64,000 bases of DNA, from assembly GCF_003855395.1 (NCBI RefSeq), contig NZ_CP034015.1:3420001-3484000 (forward strand). The letters run 5' to 3'. The stretch's first letter is position 1. Each line of letters opens with the position of its first letter. Origin of the DNA: Shewanella livingstonensis (GTDB lineage Bacteria; Pseudomonadota; Gammaproteobacteria; Enterobacterales; Shewanellaceae). The notes under the pieces were generated by a model, which saw only the letters and a program-made list of their open reading frames with translations, had not been told where the DNA came from and ran no database searches. The position numbers and the translations under genes are program-made. Positions 33,140 through 39,985 of the stretch are shown piece after piece.

Positions 33140-33150
33140 CGATGATTTTT

Positions 33151-33524
33151 TATGGCCTGCGGCCACAATTAGCTTTTCAAACTTCGTTTGAATTGAGATC
33201 GCAAGGTTTCACCTTGATCAGGTCAAATTTACCATCGTCTCTCGATGGTAGTGTAGAGCTGAGATCCAGCTCTATTTCACGTCATTCTGGTAATGCTGTT
33301 GAACCGGAATCCAGCTGCTTCTTTTGTTGTTTGTGCTTATGGCCTGCGGCCACTAACGTCGTGGCGCTTCGCCCACACCAGATTAACATCGCAAGGTTCC
33401 ACCCTGCACGGACCAAATTTACTGTCGTTCCGGTAGTGTTGTTGAACTGGGATCCAGCTTTATTTCACGTCATTCCGGTAATGCTGTTGAGCCGGAATCC
33501 AGCTGTTTTTTTGTTGTTTGTGCT
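33151..33524. repeat. Two tandem 187-bp repeat units (outer part of left composite repeat)
   Basis: The segment tatggcctgcggccac recurs at 33151, 33338 and 33525, exactly 187 bp apart each time. Within each unit the same order appears: the tggcc-tgc-ggcca hairpin, atcgcaaggtt-accttg/ccctg, caaattta, and the long-stem hairpin attccgg...ccggaat followed by ccagctg. The copies have diverged by scattered substitutions. Frames across them are not conserved (187 is not a multiple of three), so this is non-coding repeat DNA. Confidence 0.9.
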
Positions 33525-33821
33525 TATGGCCTGCGGCCACTAACGTCGTGGCGCTTCGCCCACACCAGACCAAGAGGAAACCAACGGCTGTTCCCTCTTG
33601 GAACTCCCAGCCGCCCCGCAACATTTTCGCTATTTACAAAACAACAGCTGCGAAAAGGTCGCCATGGGGATTGATTTAACTTTGACCTGCATTCGGAATC
33701 TGCTTCGGCCTTACTCGAAAATGCTAACGCTTCCGATGGTACATCCTGTACCGCGAAAGCTAAGCTCACATCCATGTGAGCTTCACGCTATTTTCTTCAA
33801 CGGCCTCAAGTTCAGAGTTGA
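33525..33821 (-). repeat. Left arm of the long inverted repeat flanking the GIY-YIG island
   Basis: Reverse-complementary to 36736-37031. The outer 151 bases (33525-33675 against 36881-37031) match with two differences and no gaps. The inner ~145 bases match with a divergent patch and one swapped hairpin. It contains hairpins at 33738-33752 (GGTAC/GTACC stem) and 33762-33783 (AAGCTCACA/TGTGAGCTT stem), both with GGA in the loop on the minus strand. It lies in the 3' flank of the island genes. Together with the tandem units this accounts for most of the 790-bp gap 33140-33928. Confidence 0.92.
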
Positions 33822-33928
33822 ATCTATGCATTTTCATAAAAAACTAACTCGTTTATGGAAAAAATCTAACTGACTGTTTATGACTCTGACATTTAGGTTT
33901 AGAGTAATACGACTACATCATAACCAGT

Positions 33929-35176
33929 CTATTTATTTAAATTAACGTCAAAGTAATTGATATTAATTGATTTATCATACCGTTCTAATTTCTCAATCAC
34001 GTCTGCGGGCATCACATAGAAGAATTCTTTACGATTATTAACTAAATTAACTCTTTGTTCTGCAAAGCTATTATGCAAATATTTTTCAAGGGTGGGTGCA
34101 TCTTCGGTAAAAACGAAAGCATGAACATCGAATAACTCAGGTACCGAAGCATCACCAAGCTCTTTTACCCTATCATTAGGATCAGCCCTTCTAGTCATCC
34201 CAATTTTACAGACTCCTTTGCCAAATGACATTTCATTCGATATGACATATACATACCCAGCTCGAGTCAGTTGGGCTAAAGATATAGCTCGTCTTTCTTT
34301 TTCACGAAGAATTTCTAATTCCTGTTGATGCAATTTATATAATGCTTTTTGCTCTTCGGTACTCGACTCTAATTTAGCCAATTCTTCAGCGACTAGCTTT
34401 TCCATTATAATTCGTTCTTTTTCTGCTTTTTCTGCAGCAGCGATTATTCGCCCTTCTTCGCGCTCTGCTTCACGGAGAATTTTGGCCTCTTCACGTTCAA
34501 TGTCTTTAATTTCTAGATTCAATTGATTTAGTTCATAACTTAACCGAAATTCCTCAGTTTTTAACTTTAAGTATTCATTACTCAGATATGTTTTAACTGT
34601 GGTACCAGAAACATTAATCTCATTGAATGTATCTGTAGTACGCTGAATTAAACGATTTATGTTATTCCATGCTACCAGCGCTGATGCTGCCTTAAATTCA
34701 TTGTCTAAACAACGAAGTCGTAGCTTAACTTCTCTATTAAACAATTTAGTGGCTTCTGATTTCTTACCGTTAACTCTAACATCTGAACCTATGCTACAAA
34801 TACAAGCAGTCTTTTTACCTACCATCTCTTTTAGTCTAGCTTTGGACTGGTGTAATTTACTTTCTATATCTTTCAGTTCCCTACTATTAACCAATTTTGA
34901 ATATACCGTAGAGTCTGATGTACCAATACTTATATGGTACTTAGAAAACAATTCTTCACGTTTACGGAGAAGTGTTAAATTATCTTGATAACTTGATTGA
35001 AGAGAACTGTACTTATTGTTCAAATCATTTAATTTTTGTTCTTCAATCGTCACTGGTTGATACATTATTTGAATCTGAGCAGATTTTTCTTTTAGCGCCA
35101 GAAACTTAGATCGAGATGACAAAAGTAAATAAATTGAATAAGATAATAAACATGCTAATAACATAATTATGTACAT
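33929..35176 (-). CDS. Membrane-anchored DUF4041 coiled-coil protein with T5orf172/GIY-YIG nuclease domain (copy A)
   Basis: 415 aa; GGGGAG lies about eight bases before the ATG. Residues 1-21 (MYIIMLLACLLSYSIYLLL) form a membrane anchor. Residues ~25-300 are long charged helices including a DUF4041 core (LRCLDNEFKAASALVAWNN, YLKLKTEEFRLSYELNQ) and a Glu/Arg-rich coiled coil (EREEAKILREAEREEGRI). The C-terminal ~110 residues are a T5orf172/MUG113 domain of the GIY-YIG superfamily: AGYVYVISN, KIGMTRRADPNDRVKELGDASVP, then EKYLHNSFAEQRV and NRKEFFYV. The residues typical of the nuclease core are present. It follows copy B by 13 bp. Function is unknown; DUF4041/T5orf172 proteins occur in phages and accessory regions. 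Confidence 0.82.
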   Translation of the reverse strand: MYIIMLLACLLSYSIYLLLSSRSKFLALKEKSAQIQIMYQPVTIEEQKLNDLNNKYSSLQSSYQDNLTLLRKREELFSKYHISIGTSDSTVYSKLVNSRELKDIESKLHQSKARLKEMVGKKTACICSIGSDVRVNGKKSEATKLFNREVKLRLRCLDNEFKAASALVAWNNINRLIQRTTDTFNEINVSGTTVKTYLSNEYLKLKTEEFRLSYELNQLNLEIKDIEREEAKILREAEREEGRIIAAAEKAEKERIIMEKLVAEELAKLESSTEEQKALYKLHQQELEILREKERRAISLAQLTRAGYVYVISNEMSFGKGVCKIGMTRRADPNDRVKELGDASVPELFDVHAFVFTEDAPTLEKYLHNSFAEQRVNLVNNRKEFFYVMPADVIEKLERYDKSININYFDVNLNK

Positions 35177-35189
35177 ATGCTATTCTCCC

Positions 35190-36539
35190 CTATATGGAAG
35201 CTGGTAACTGATATGATGAAGTCTGAGCTTGTGAGGCATCATGTTTAAGAGCTTTTCGCATGAGTAAGCTTTCTCGATATTCTTTTGCTTCTGCATCAAA
35301 ATACCAATCACATTCAATACCTAATTCTTCCATGGCTTCCGTAACTTGTTGTAACGATACTCTGAAGAACTCTTTACGATAATTGTCGGCATTCACACGT
35401 CTATCATTAAACTTTTGATGCAACTTCCTTTCAATCTCAGGAGCATCACCAACAAATGTGAGTGTATGAACATCAAATTTAAAGGGAACACTTGCATCAC
35501 CCAACTCATTAACTCTATCCATAGGTTCTAAGCGCCTTGTCATGCCTATCTTCACAACTCCTTCACCAAAGCTACCAATATTAGAAATGACATAGATGTA
35601 ACCAACTCTTGTTAACTGAGCTTGTGATGTTGCTCTTTCAAACTTACGCTCTAACTGATTAATTTCACTCTTAATATGGAAAATTTTTAATTCTATTTCT
35701 GCGGCATTAGCACCGTGTAATTGACTGGCAAGCTTCTGAGCTTTTATCAAATCAGATTTACGATAATAAAGTTCATCCCCTATTTCCTCTGCTTGATCAC
35801 CTGATTGATTACCTTGCGCTCTAATTAAAGCCTGTTGCTCTTTCTTTTGCTGTTTAAGATTTTCTTTGTGTTGGAGCTCACGATGCCAAACTGAAAGCTC
35901 ATTTACTTTAAGCTTTAAATAATCACTTGAAATAGCCACTCTTGCTGTTTCACCAAGTTTTGATAATTGCTCTTCAAGCTTATATAGTTTTTTCAGTGCT
36001 ATATCATAACTTGAATAACGCATTTGCTTTCGAATGAAATCAAACTCAGCATTAAATGCTTTTAACAAAAGGTTTCGATAAGAACTAACCATCTTAGCAC
36101 CTTCACTTTTACTGCCAAACCACTCCCAGTTAGAATATGCAGTTGTTGCTGTACTATTCTTGATTGATTCGAATTGTACTTCTAAACAATCTTCAATATG
36201 CTTTTTCAGTGATTCACTATCATCAAAATTGAATGTAGGAGGAAACAATCCAACATCGATAAATTTTAATTGTCCATTAATATGAGCTAGTTTTTTATTT
36301 AACTCATTATATACAGGCATCCCTGTAGATAGCTTATGTTCGATGTTTTGATATGATTTCTGTAAATCAAGTATAAGTTGATCAATCGGTTTACTTTTCA
36401 GCGCTTTTTCTTTACGTTCAATTTCAATAGTTAATTCTTTACGTTTACGTGATGTTGAGTAAACCATAAAAAATGTCACACACGATAGAACAGCTAAAAC
36501 TAATAAAGTAATTTGATCGATTTCGACATCCTTGAACAT
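35190..36539 (-). CDS. Membrane-anchored DUF4041 coiled-coil protein with T5orf172/GIY-YIG nuclease domain (copy B)
   Basis: 449 aa from the ATG at 36539, preferred because GGAG is six bases upstream; the in-frame ATG at 36551 has no ribosome site. A membrane helix lies at ~residues 7-25 (ITLLVLAVLSCVTFFMVYS). Then come DUF4041-type helices (ECLEVQFESIKNSTAT-like region, LLKAFNAEFDFIRKQMR, DYLKLKVNELSVWHRELQ) and a coiled coil up to ~residue 305. The GIY-YIG/T5orf172 domain (VGYIYVISN, KIGMTRRLEPMDRVNELGDASVP, IERKLHQKFNDRRVN, YRKEFFRV) is followed by a ~45-residue tail absent from copy A. The two copies share architecture but little N-terminal identity, so the duplication is old or they arrived as a pair. 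Confidence 0.82.
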   Translation of the reverse strand: MFKDVEIDQITLLVLAVLSCVTFFMVYSTSRKRKELTIEIERKEKALKSKPIDQLILDLQKSYQNIEHKLSTGMPVYNELNKKLAHINGQLKFIDVGLFPPTFNFDDSESLKKHIEDCLEVQFESIKNSTATTAYSNWEWFGSKSEGAKMVSSYRNLLLKAFNAEFDFIRKQMRYSSYDIALKKLYKLEEQLSKLGETARVAISSDYLKLKVNELSVWHRELQHKENLKQQKKEQQALIRAQGNQSGDQAEEIGDELYYRKSDLIKAQKLASQLHGANAAEIELKIFHIKSEINQLERKFERATSQAQLTRVGYIYVISNIGSFGEGVVKIGMTRRLEPMDRVNELGDASVPFKFDVHTLTFVGDAPEIERKLHQKFNDRRVNADNYRKEFFRVSLQQVTEAMEELGIECDWYFDAEAKEYRESLLMRKALKHDASQAQTSSYQLPASI

Positions 36540-36735
36540 AAGCTTCTCCATTTTATTTTGTTACACGAAGATACTTCATATATTTATGTAACGCATTCTA
36601 ATATTTAAAAATTAAGTCATATTGCAAAGAAATAGTGTTAACCACTATATTTCATTAAACAAAACTTGCTCTATATTTTTGTATCATTGGCAATACTCTT
36701 CAAAAACGAGTTATATGCCTTGCTTGTAATGGGTC

Positions 36736-37031
36736 TCAACTCTGAACTTGAGGACGTTGAAGAAAATAGCGTGAGCCTGACAGGACGTCAGGCTAGCTTT
36801 CGCGGTACAGGATGTACCATCGGAAGCGTTAGCATTTTCGAGTAAGTCCGAGGACGATTCCAAATAAAGCCCAAAGCTGGATCAATCCCCATGGCGACCT
36901 TTTCGCAGCTGTTGTTTTGTAAATAGCGAAAATGTTGCGGGGCGGCTGGGAGTTCCAAGAGGGAACAGCCGTTGGTTTCCTCTTGGTCTGGTGTGGGTGA
37001 AGCGCCACGACGTTAGTGGCCGTAGGCCATA
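36736..37031 (+). repeat. Right arm of the long inverted repeat flanking the GIY-YIG island
   Basis: Inverted copy of 33525-33821. The conserved flanks enclose a hairpin with a different stem (AGCCTGAC-aggac-GTCAGGCT, 36774-36794); next to it is the shared GGTAC-aggat-GTACC stem (36804-36818). Upstream, 36540-36735 is the A+T-rich promoter region of the copy B gene, with nothing else identified. Confidence 0.92.
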
Positions 37032-37111
37032 TCCATCAGCCCATGCAGGGTGGAACCTTGCGATCTTAATTCAAACGAAGTTTGAAAATACCATAGTGGC
37101 CGCAGGCCATA
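37032..37111 (+). repeat. Shortened outer unit of the right composite repeat
   Basis: 80 bp equivalent to a 187-bp left-side unit with its middle (the attccgg hairpin part) missing. It keeps ggtggaaccttgcgatct-, attcaaacgaagtttgaaaa- and gtggccgcaggccata in the inverted order of 33151-33205. Confidence 0.8.
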
Positions 37112-37122
37112 TGTAATAAAAA

Positions 37123-38162
37123 GGCTATGTTCCATAATACTGTTGTCTACCGTAAGCGGACAACAGTATTTGCCGTTTATTTAGCTTTGCGCTGCTTTCC
37201 TTAAACCAAGCGAGATAATTCGATAAATATTTTGTAGCTACTCCCTTCATACTTCCGTTTACCCAGGCTTTAAAATTCGCTATTGCACCATTGACAGTCT
37301 GAATGTGATAAATATTATCCATCACTCTGATTTTCCCATTTATCAATCGCTTATGGTCACAGTGCTTTAGTTTGGCTATCTTCACATATGCCCATGCACC
37401 ATCGCTGCAAAGCACTGAATTTTCTTCAATGTTTTCAGTAAGATTAATGGATATTTCTGAAGACGTATCAGCAGATAAAATTGGCGCTATCATGTGTTTA
37501 CTGCGGTCAATGGAAAGAAGCACCGCAACTTGGCCTTCTTTAGTACGTTTATCAATATCACCACCGCGCTTTCTGGCTTTTTGACCTGAACCGAGTGTTT
37601 TATTACCTTTTTCAGAATAGGCAAGAAAGAATTCATCAACCTCGATAATGCCCGATAGTTTGTCATCATTTTTCCCTGCCTGAGCCTGAAGAAATCGATG
37701 TCGCCATAAAAAGGCTGTTTTAAGATTAATACCACAGACTCTAGCCGCCTGCCTCAGCGTTAACCGCAACGCCATACAGTGGGCATACTCGACCCAAATG
37801 CAGCTCTTATGCAGCCTAGCTAGCGGGGTATTAGTCTTGTTGTTAAACGTTTTACTGCAGCTATTGCAGCGATATCGTTGTACTCCACCTGCTTTCCCCC
37901 ACTTTTTGAACTGGCTTGAATCGCAGTGTGGACACTGCGATTTTGAATCAAAAAGTGGTTGGAACAGCTCATCTATAGGGATTTCGGTATCTAATGCTTG
38001 AATTGACTGGTGAACTACCTCTCTCTGAGCTGGAGTCATAGAGATAAGTGCTTTTGTTATCTGGTTAAGTTTACTCACAAATAATTTTGCTTTCATTTCC
38101 TTTACCCTCAATCAGTTAGCTTCACTCATTAAGTATAGACAACATTTACCTACAACAGCGCC
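37123..38162 (-). mobile_element. IS1595-family insertion sequence with 8-bp target duplication
   Basis: 1040 bp. Imperfect 27-bp terminal inverted repeats (37123-37149 and 38136-38162) match at 18 positions, including the inner TGTTGTCTA and outer GGC. Immediately outside, AATAAAAA is present on both sides (37115-37122 and 38163-38170); an 8-bp target duplication is typical of IS1595-type elements. The single gene inside is the transposase. The element landed in the U-tract of the terminator behind the M28 peptidase gene, abutting the right composite repeat. Confidence 0.93.
37125..38096 (-). CDS. IS1595-family transposase
   Basis: 323 aa from the ATG at 38096 (GAGG about nine bases upstream); a TTG 15 bases earlier is less likely. 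An N-terminal zinc ribbon (CPHC..YRCNSC, ~residues 55-80) is followed by a helix-turn-helix-like segment (LTLRQAARVCGINLKTAFLWRHRFL). The catalytic core of the ISXO2/IS1595 type has the first Asp in IIEVDEFFLAY, the second in VLCSDGAWAY, and the C-terminal NGAIANFKAWVNGSMKGVATKYLSNYLAWF region. No frameshift or stop interrupts it, so it may be active. The stop codon lies inside the terminal inverted repeat. Confidence 0.93.
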   Translation of the reverse strand: MKAKLFVSKLNQITKALISMTPAQREVVHQSIQALDTEIPIDELFQPLFDSKSQCPHCDSSQFKKWGKAGGVQRYRCNSCSKTFNNKTNTPLARLHKSCIWVEYAHCMALRLTLRQAARVCGINLKTAFLWRHRFLQAQAGKNDDKLSGIIEVDEFFLAYSEKGNKTLGSGQKARKRGGDIDKRTKEGQVAVLLSIDRSKHMIAPILSADTSSEISINLTENIEENSVLCSDGAWAYVKIAKLKHCDHKRLINGKIRVMDNIYHIQTVNGAIANFKAWVNGSMKGVATKYLSNYLAWFKESSAKLNKRQILLSAYGRQQYYGT

Positions 38163-38208: not shown

Positions 38209-39798
38209 CTACTTTCCGTCTTCTGCTCGACGCTTTTTAAAGTCTGATTCTTCAAGCCACTTTGGCCAGTCGTTATTGTTGGCTAGCTTATCAATGATGT
38301 CGCTAATTAAGGCTAAGTCTTGCTCTACCCCGCCTAAATTCCAACTGGCATCGTAGTCGTCGGCAGCTTGATGATATTTATGGGCAATATAGCCTGGGTC
38401 GGTATCGCCTAGGCTCATGAACATTAACCCGGGTACGCCTTGTTGGGCTAAAGCAAAATGGTCTGAACGGAACATTAAGCCATTTTGTGGACGAGGATCA
38501 GCCTTTACAGTGCGGCCTTGTGCTTTGGCGGCATCATCTAAATAGGTTTCAAGTTCTGACACTCCTTGGCCATAACGCAATATATAATCCACGCCTTTAC
38601 CCACGTTCATGCCGTCTATGTTTAAGAATGACACCAGTTGTTTAGTCGGTACCGGAGGATTGGCAGCAAAGTATTGGGCACCAATGAGGCCGGTTTCTTC
38701 TGCGGTAAATGCAGTGAACAGAATAGAGCGTTTAGGGGCTTTGTTTTGCGCTTTAAAGTGACGAGCTAACTGTAATACACCTGCAACGCCAGAGGCATTA
38801 TCAACTGCACCGTTATAAATACGCGTCTTGCCATCTTGTACCGTTTTACCCAAGTGATCCCAATGGGCATGCATTACCAACCATTCATCGGCTTGAGTCG
38901 TGCCAGGTAATAGCCCTGCTACGTTATACGATGTAGCGAGTTCGATAGTATTTTTTAGCGCTAAATTCGCATTAAGCTTTAATGGAATAGACTTAAATCC
39001 CGCTTTAGCCGCTGTGAGTTTCAATGTGTCAAAGTCGAGCCCCGCAGCCTTAAATATTTTTTGCGCTGCTTGATGTTGAACCCAACCCATTACGCCTATA
39101 TGTGATTTATTTTGCGCTTTATCGACTAAGGTAAACTTGGTATTGGTATTGCTGTTTTCAACCACATTCCAGCCGTAGGCTGCGGGTGCGGTTTCGTGCA
39201 CAATAAATACCGCTTTGGCGCCCTGCCTTGCTGCTTCTTCATATTTGTAAGTCCAACGACCGTAATAGGTCATGGCATTACCTTTAAAGATCGCAGGATC
39301 TTGTGTCGCAAAACCTGGGTCATTAACTAATATGATTACGGTTTTGCCTTTTACATCGACATTAGCATAATCATTCCACTGATATTCGGGCGCATTAATG
39401 CCGTAACCCACAAACACCACTTCACTTTTATCTAATGCAACTAAAGGCAAAACTTGCTCGGTTCGTGCGGTGAAATCAGTGCCATTTTTAAACACTAAAT
39501 CACCTATTTTAAGCTGCATTGTTTGCTCGGCAGTGATTTTTGCCATCGGCACCGCTTGGCGATAACTGTCACCAAAACCTGGCTTGAGCCCCATCGTTTT
39601 ATAGGCTTGCTCTATATATTCAACCGTCAGCTTTTCGCCATGGGACAAAGGACCACGACCTTCAAATTCGTCACTGGCTAGGGTTTGTACATCTTGGCGA
39701 TAGGTTTTTTGATCAAATTGAAATGGCGCAGCATTTACGCTTGGCAGTAAAAACACTCCAAACACAGCTAATAAACGAAAGGTATTCACAGACAACAT
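38209..39798 (-). CDS. Exported M28-family metallopeptidase with PA domain
   Basis: 529 aa from the ATG at 39798. Starts at 39834 (ATG) or 39789 (GTG, best spaced from AAAGG) are possible. A signal peptide (RLLAVFGVFLLPSVNA) is followed by a PA domain (~residues 120-260; VVFVGYGINAPEYQWNDYANVDVKGKTVIILV). The M28 core has all expected zinc ligands: HAHWDHLG, GAVDNASG, FTAEETGLIG, LNIDGMN and AHKYHQAADDY. It probably removes N-terminal residues from peptides in the periplasm or medium. The gene is alone, with its own terminator. Confidence 0.9.
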   Translation of the reverse strand: MLSVNTFRLLAVFGVFLLPSVNAAPFQFDQKTYRQDVQTLASDEFEGRGPLSHGEKLTVEYIEQAYKTMGLKPGFGDSYRQAVPMAKITAEQTMQLKIGDLVFKNGTDFTARTEQVLPLVALDKSEVVFVGYGINAPEYQWNDYANVDVKGKTVIILVNDPGFATQDPAIFKGNAMTYYGRWTYKYEEAARQGAKAVFIVHETAPAAYGWNVVENSNTNTKFTLVDKAQNKSHIGVMGWVQHQAAQKIFKAAGLDFDTLKLTAAKAGFKSIPLKLNANLALKNTIELATSYNVAGLLPGTTQADEWLVMHAHWDHLGKTVQDGKTRIYNGAVDNASGVAGVLQLARHFKAQNKAPKRSILFTAFTAEETGLIGAQYFAANPPVPTKQLVSFLNIDGMNVGKGVDYILRYGQGVSELETYLDDAAKAQGRTVKADPRPQNGLMFRSDHFALAQQGVPGLMFMSLGDTDPGYIAHKYHQAADDYDASWNLGGVEQDLALISDIIDKLANNNDWPKWLEESDFKKRRAEDGK

Positions 39799-39985
39799 CC
39801 TTTGTTGAGTATTAATAAAATTTATTGTAATCATTGCTAGGGTCTAGAGCGGACGTCGTCCTGCTAGAACGCTTCGCGGCTATAAAGGCTAGGCTCACCA
39901 ATATAGTCTGAAGCCATCAGCAGTACTAGCGCTTTTATCGTCTCAAGTATCGAATCAACCCGGCACTTAGCGCTTTAGCCGTTGT

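Follow-up and report, generated by a model that had tools for sequence, protein, structure and literature searches.

A two-gene SNIPE-like operon as the probable present cargo of an arm-framed exchange site in Shewanella

The window analysed here is a 64,000-nucleotide stretch of Shewanella livingstonensis DNA (contig NZ_CP034015.1, positions 3,420,001 to 3,484,000). In our main reading, to which we give a probability of about 0.7, a two-gene SNIPE anti-phage operon in this window is the present cargo of an arm-framed exchange site. The evidence is visible in the sequences themselves: a fixed B-A gene order, two separate clades, many copies of the arms, and breakpoints at a short motif in 3 of 12 segments common to different sites.

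The island lies between two convergent host genes. To its left is a gene for a GNAT acetyltransferase with a DUF3335/C39-like peptidase (GNAT-C39; 32024..33139, plus strand), recognized with Pfam, whose orthologues mark the site in relatives; to its right is an M28 peptidase gene (38209..39834, minus), a name taken from the preliminary description. The left arm (33525..33860, plus) was delimited by inverted-repeat alignment and genome-wide matches. It is preceded by two further, partial copies of that arm's outer repeat in tandem (33150..33524, plus), direct repeats with a period of ~187 bp, and the outer arm end occurs in three copies on this side, at 33150, 33337 and 33524. Repeat alignment placed the right arm at 36736..37031 (minus) as an inverted copy of 33525-33821, and farther out lies an outer right repeat (37046..37111, minus), an inverted copy of 33151-33216 at 88%. 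The preliminary description had reported inverted arms of ~296 bp with two differences in the outer 151 bp; our alignment of 33525-33821 with 36736-37031 agrees, with 23 differences in 297 columns and 2 within the outer 151. An IS1595-family transposase gene (37125..38111, minus) sits beyond the right arm, between it and the M28 gene. The arms enclose two tandem genes on the minus strand that Pfam, PADLOC, alignment and tree place as PD-Lambda-1/SNIPE-like: SNIPE-B, the upstream gene of the pair (35190..36551, 453 aa), and SNIPE-A, the downstream one (33929..35176, 415 aa). SNIPE-B starts at 36551, the previously reported 36539 being a later in-frame ATG.

A search with the left arm (33525-33773) returned 51 matches at E <= 0.001 in the window's own genome, the longest of full length and the shortest of ~31 bp, so the arms are not a product of chance. 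Many matches stand in convergent pairs enclosing orphan genes, and 11 arm-framed islands were paired in this genome. With up to five candidates scored per genome, an arm match, often partial, was found in 108 of 129 Shewanella genomes, and four complete relatives carried 39 to 61 matches each. Ten of the 11 islands in the window's genome lie between convergent genes; among 42 listed islands from seven genomes, with orthologous islands counted repeatedly, 28 lie between convergent, 12 between codirectional and 2 between divergent genes. Rfam gave sub-threshold matches only, among them an end-to-end match of the arm at 33669-33828 (minus) to TwoAYGGAY at 32.7 versus 43 bits. The arms are not private to the SNIPE island; they belong to a genome-wide repeat class that appears to be new.

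We found arm sequence beside GNAT-C39 in 11 of 12 close relatives, with differing cargo throughout. A right-hand arm match was present in G086, G025 and G131 and as fragments in G110 and G093, and none was seen in G112, G104 and G070; the contigs of G131 and G147 end within the stretch after GNAT-C39, and the stretch read in G148 and G020 stops short of M28. Between GNAT-C39 and TilS, G035 matched neither the arm nor M28. Pfam and PADLOC named some of the cargo at the orthologous site: DMP19 in G086, a KAP NTPase (PDC-S20) in G025, an LA2681-like HEPN protein in G110 and GNAT plus DUF2971 in G093, and that of G148 and G020 comprised, by eye, metal-efflux-like proteins. At 10 of 12 more distant loci (L050-L059) TilS follows GNAT-C39 directly, with neither arms nor island, and within the 4 kb available for the remaining two (L060 and L061) no arm was matched. 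Extending the comparison to orthologous sites of 10 of the 11 islands in the window's genome, we found no common cargo of at least 150 bp in 26 of 28 comparisons; the other two share cargo, which in one is a short repeat present at many loci. As read from these alignments, cargo turns over at arm-framed sites. The earlier suggestion that the genes are carried as a cassette is supported to this extent: close relatives have other cargo in the interval, and 10 of the 12 distant loci have no arms or island there. The clean empty site predicted with it, joining ~33150 to ~38163, was not found among the 12 close relatives, where other cargo was seen instead.

We scanned 20 cargo proteins from islands with Pfam and 10 with PADLOC. 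Pfam names included SieB, AHH nuclease, Sel1, DMP19, KAP, HEPN_LA2681, TIR, GNAT and DUF2971; ten of the 20 proteins had no Pfam match, and one more had sub-threshold matches only. PADLOC named three of its 10 (PDC-M02B, PDC-S20 (KAP) and TIR-TM). Two islands of the window's own genome code for a SieB superinfection-exclusion protein (L023 3917-4438; Pfam 6e-27) and the PADLOC candidate defence protein PDC-M02B (L030 3969-5114; E 3e-233). Two further observations concern single sites: in G104 the site orthologous to the window's has, next to its cargo, a fragment resembling the N-terminus of an integron integrase (L086, reverse complement 2606-2956), and in G148 another site exists as a 264-bp form with a small arm (L118).

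The inner ends of the arms share a quasi-palindromic motif of ~14 bp, a six-base core and another ~14 bp. Its own reverse complement was matched at at least 8 of 14 places in 24 of 67 distinct sites, compared with 5 of 476 control windows. Among 141 inner-end matches, 68 had an exact core, divided equally between TGGACA (34) and TGCCCC (34). Both ends could be classed in 22 of 31 paired islands, and they were unlike in 20 and alike in 2; for a fair coin, at most 2 alike among 22 would have p ~6e-5, a value to be read with the partial non-independence of the islands and with classes set after viewing. The preliminary description had also raised inversion of the whole segment between the arms. 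We found no evidence for this, and the unlike core classes argue against simple inversion at the inner-end motifs. In the window's island, motif comparison places the left inner end at 33842..33877 (plus) with the core TGGAAA, a degenerate form of the TGGACA class; the right one (36681..36716, minus) has the unclassified core TGAAGA, and its flank resembles, by eye, TGCCCC-class arms. Because both cores are degenerate, the island may no longer move by them.

Segments common to different sites offered a view of the breakpoints. The 12 examined comprise 11 pairs, L018/L106 among them, and the L029 group. Three of the 12 break at the inner-end motif. The cargo of L018 recurs with 98% identity at a non-orthologous G025 site, its left break falling at GTTAG beside the core; a ~460-bp cassette of L029, with direct TGCCCC copies as its bounds, recurs with 96-98% identity at one site in G025 and two in G112; the third segment is common to two G112 sites. 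None of the other nine has clear breaks at the motif on both sides; one of these nine is a copy of a group II intron-like element. Such an element of 2.16 kb, by eye a group II intron with an RT-like ORF of 543 aa, lies directly at the inner arm end in L097, L101 and L102 (G025) and L115 (G148); the three G025 copies are 100% identical in the compared stretches, and related copies occur in L110, L139 and L148.

Most likely, island cargo changes through recombination, either site-specific or homologous, at or close to the inner ends of the arms. Ordinary homologous recombination is the strongest of the rival explanations, and we rate it a serious possibility, somewhat short of even odds. Arms and core genes would provide the homology for DNA uptake, and the inner motif would simply be where arm homology ends. 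The arms are long, similar and abundant, the site is kept through exchange, nine of the 12 common segments lack clear breaks at the motif, and recombination between arms or flanks could account for much of the turnover. Against it stand three segments whose breaks fall within the motif or at its edge, including one flanked by direct TGCCCC copies at four sites spread over three genomes, and the unlike end classes at 20 of 22 islands. Site-specific recombination at the motif, and an enzyme for it, would be the alternative.

A second rival, that the islands are integron gene cassettes (CALIN/SALIN) mobilized by a chromosomal integron integrase, seems unlikely to us. The window's own genome does carry an integron integrase gene (1089873-1090805), CALINs and SALINs have been published for Shewanella (PMC9229058, available in part), group II intron-like elements stand at inner arm ends, and a GTTAG-like motif occurs at cargo starts. 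Two common segments (L087/L121 and L085/L121) end at GTTA, as integron cassettes might. However, there is no arm or arm-core match in the 18 kb around the integrase, and cargo occurs in both orientations. The G/TTRRRY crossover is absent from the TGCCCC side, where breakpoints do not fall at G/TT; one boundary on the TGGACA side begins GTTAG. With no arms near the chromosomal integron, integron membership of the islands is disfavoured, though two segments do end at GTTA. A 210-bp element within islands had at first resembled an attC array and proved to be the end of a tyrosine-recombinase element (L168 10331-12607), which also contains a second gene, by eye IS91 transposase-like; the 210-bp element with its attC-like end recurs within islands at L147, L143, L124, L081 and L128. 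Xer/dif half-sites were likewise set aside: the single dif-like match in the window's genome, GCGCACAATGTATATTATGTTAA, differs by eye in its centre and halves from the inner-end consensus.

Turning to the cargo, both proteins matched the PADLOC PD-Lambda-1 profile, SNIPE-A at E 3e-89 (residues 34-403 on profile positions 82-454 of 491) and SNIPE-B at E 5e-113 (43-442 on 80-483 of 491). Against the Pfam cut-off of 27 bits, DUF4041 was barely recognized in A (27.9 bits) and clearly in B (42.9 bits), and T5orf172/MUG113 exceeded the Pfam cut-offs in both. Kyte-Doolittle peaks of 2.25 and 2.32 near the N-termini of A and B, a measure of hydropathy only, suggest membrane helices, and an N-terminal hydrophobic segment was present in all 12 proteins of six A/B pairs. 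In AlphaFold models of A and B (mean pLDDT 80 and 77, pTM 0.44 and 0.50), long helices occupy the N-terminal part, the middle is also helical, and an alpha/beta domain forms the C-terminus. The Pfam domains, the hydrophobic segments and the long predicted helices together bear out the initial account of two tandem DUF4041/GIY-YIG genes. A fold search with the A model found nothing significant (best E 0.48), with the Slx1 GIY-YIG domain at rank 2 (E 0.82) and again at ranks 3 and 5.

PD-Lambda-1 was renamed SNIPE in 2026 and is described as a membrane nuclease that cleaves phage DNA as it is being injected. In the passages available (PMC13190303), SNIPE is anchored in the inner membrane, its DUF4041 promotes DNA binding and probably touches the tape measure protein, and E414A or deletion of DUF4041 abolishes defence. 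A phage-borne PD-lambda-1 protein of 500 aa, XSB42081.1, has E223, N250, W257, I308 and E414 at the positions named there (PMC13190303, in part). E364 of A and E374 of B align with its E414; A is 34% and B 35% identical to it, and A and B are 29% identical to each other. By profile and alignment, A and B are members of the PD-Lambda-1/SNIPE family with the catalytic glutamate conserved in both. The preliminary description had proposed a membrane-tethered nuclease acting on incoming DNA, and family membership together with the SNIPE mechanism, already published (PMC13190303, in part), supports that proposal. An annotated PD-lambda-1 gene lies near annotated Ren, P and O genes in a record of Escherichia phage PhiR26_1 (L285).

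We then asked how widely the pair occurs, the preliminary description having called for a search for it elsewhere. An order-wide search, with at most three candidates scored per genome, matched 50 of 394 genomes (the window's own included), and in 35 the match fell below E 1e-40. Six of these 35 have both genes in tandem at full length, namely the window's genome, G116, G202, G253, G325 and G415; G200, G241 and G438 had two matches each, split or partial. In G241 (L191 6016-9730) a single SNIPE gene is interrupted by two genes, by eye an IS21-like pair. A class-wide search with the A alignment matched 14 of 369 genomes, the window's included. Among 20 loci classed from the order- and class-wide searches, full-length A and B stood together only at the window's own locus; 15 were single (L280 a fragment) and four, of ~215-225 aa, shared the nuclease domain only.

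A scan of 84,980 genomes with the A alignment gave, as its best 80 matches, 79 loci, which were scored against A, B and single profiles; L199, L201 and L214 belong to genomes also in the order-wide search. Eighteen of the 79 were A-type and 61 scored as single, none of the latter with a partner by the profile test. Among these best matches, B lies directly upstream of A on the same strand at all 17 assessable A loci, so the pair does recur; the contig of the eighteenth, L208, starts within A. The B-A gaps run from -4 to 14 nt, with one of -47 by start choice, and because the called start at that locus (L202) overlaps B by 47 nt, the automatic count was 16 rather than 17. The A hosts among the best 80 matches included Marinomonas, Alteromonas, Colwellia, Motilimonas, Shewanella, Vibrio, Pseudoalteromonas, Idiomarina, Aeromonas and an Opitutales MAG. 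In a 62-row tree, A (21 rows) and B (20 rows) each formed one clade with 100/100 support, and the 21 single rows, a chosen subset, fell outside both. A cysteine motif, CxC...RxRC, was present in 18 of 21 A rows, none of 20 B rows and none of 21 single rows. No arm match was found in the stretch examined around each of 17 other pair loci, which indicates that the pair is independent of the arms. In G014 a single SNIPE gene lies near an 87-bp arm fragment, beside a gene that is by eye orthologous to a neighbour of the window genome's island L021, and in G019 a SNIPE gene is near an arm fragment too. The available passages of PMC13190303 contain none on a paired arrangement, and the open-access literature, outside which most subscription papers lie, yielded neither a paired SNIPE nor arm-framed islands. 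Judged from these comparisons, the B-A pair appears to be a fixed two-gene subtype, apparently new, and its linkage suggests that A and B probably act together.

The tandem genes might instead be a duplicated one-gene SNIPE whose copies do not depend on each other, which we consider improbable. A and B have all their domains in common, at 29% identity, and SNIPE has been described as one protein (PMC13190303, in part). Against duplication, A and B form separate, fully supported clades across many families, no A occurs without B in the 17 assessable loci among the best 80 matches, and the order is fixed, with the gaps given above. Weakest of all, a composite transposon moved by the adjacent IS1595 has almost no probability left. 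Its transposase gene does abut the right arm, but from outside the arms, and the right arms of G086 and G025 adjoin the M28 gene with no IS1595 match beside them, which largely refutes IS1595 as the mover. As movers, integron integrase, Xer and IS1595 are each disfavoured.

For a SNIPE operon held in an exchange site, we propose the following mechanism. B and A would each be anchored in the inner membrane by the N-terminal helix, at the site of phage injection their DUF4041 regions would contact the incoming DNA, which their GIY-YIG domains would cut; by analogy with SNIPE, the pair most likely cuts phage DNA at entry. A and B would probably work as a pair, for example as a heteromer or as two subunits that differ in their contacts with phage or host. 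The arm-framed sites, scattered and mostly between convergent genes, would have their cargo exchanged between strains and sites, with breakpoints that would fall, at least partly, in the short motif at the inner arm ends. More tentatively, and we hold this doubtful, Shewanella may possess a cassette system that spans the genome and is distinct from both integrons and transposons, in which ~300-bp arms at the 3' ends of core genes serve as docking sites, accessory genes, some for phage defence, are cut and pasted at the quasi-palindromic site, and the TGGACA/TGCCCC cores give polarity; the window would then hold one cassette with a heteromeric two-component SNIPE. SNIPE as so far described in the passages available is one protein with a variable N-terminus, and a form with two dedicated proteins would reveal ways in which recognition and cutting can be combined or divided. 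For small defence genes in Shewanella, the arm-framed sites could account for one-by-one swapping, and they would be a simple marker for finding more exchangeable genes.

REP/BIME and MITE families are high-copy intergenic palindromic repeats, and the arm repeats resemble them in all three respects; unlike them, the arms are paired in an inverted frame around kilobase cargo. The islands resemble the CALIN/SALIN arrays of Shewanella, which are scattered accessory cassettes with group II introns in some (PMC9229058, in part), but differ in their inverted-frame arm repeats, in TGCCCC-side breaks that are not at G/TT, and in a chromosomal integron with no arms nearby. Acinetobacter dif modules, in the accessible part of PMC6449649, are gene cassettes flanked on either side by short sites of two halves, which fall into two classes set by their central bases. 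The islands likewise have two-half sites flanking cassettes and two centre classes, with unlike ends in 20 of 22; in contrast to the 28-bp dif site, the site here is ~14+6+14 with a TGGACA or TGCCCC core, and there are extra arms of ~300 bp. A and B, finally, have in common with SNIPE (PD-Lambda-1; PMC13190303 and PMC9519451, both in part) an N-terminal hydrophobic helix, DUF4041, a C-terminal GIY-YIG domain and a glutamate aligned with E414. Whereas the SNIPE described there is one gene, the window has two neighbouring genes in the order B-A, each in its own clade, and because they form a recurring two-gene pair rather than the single gene of that description, we place them as a variant of the SNIPE family.
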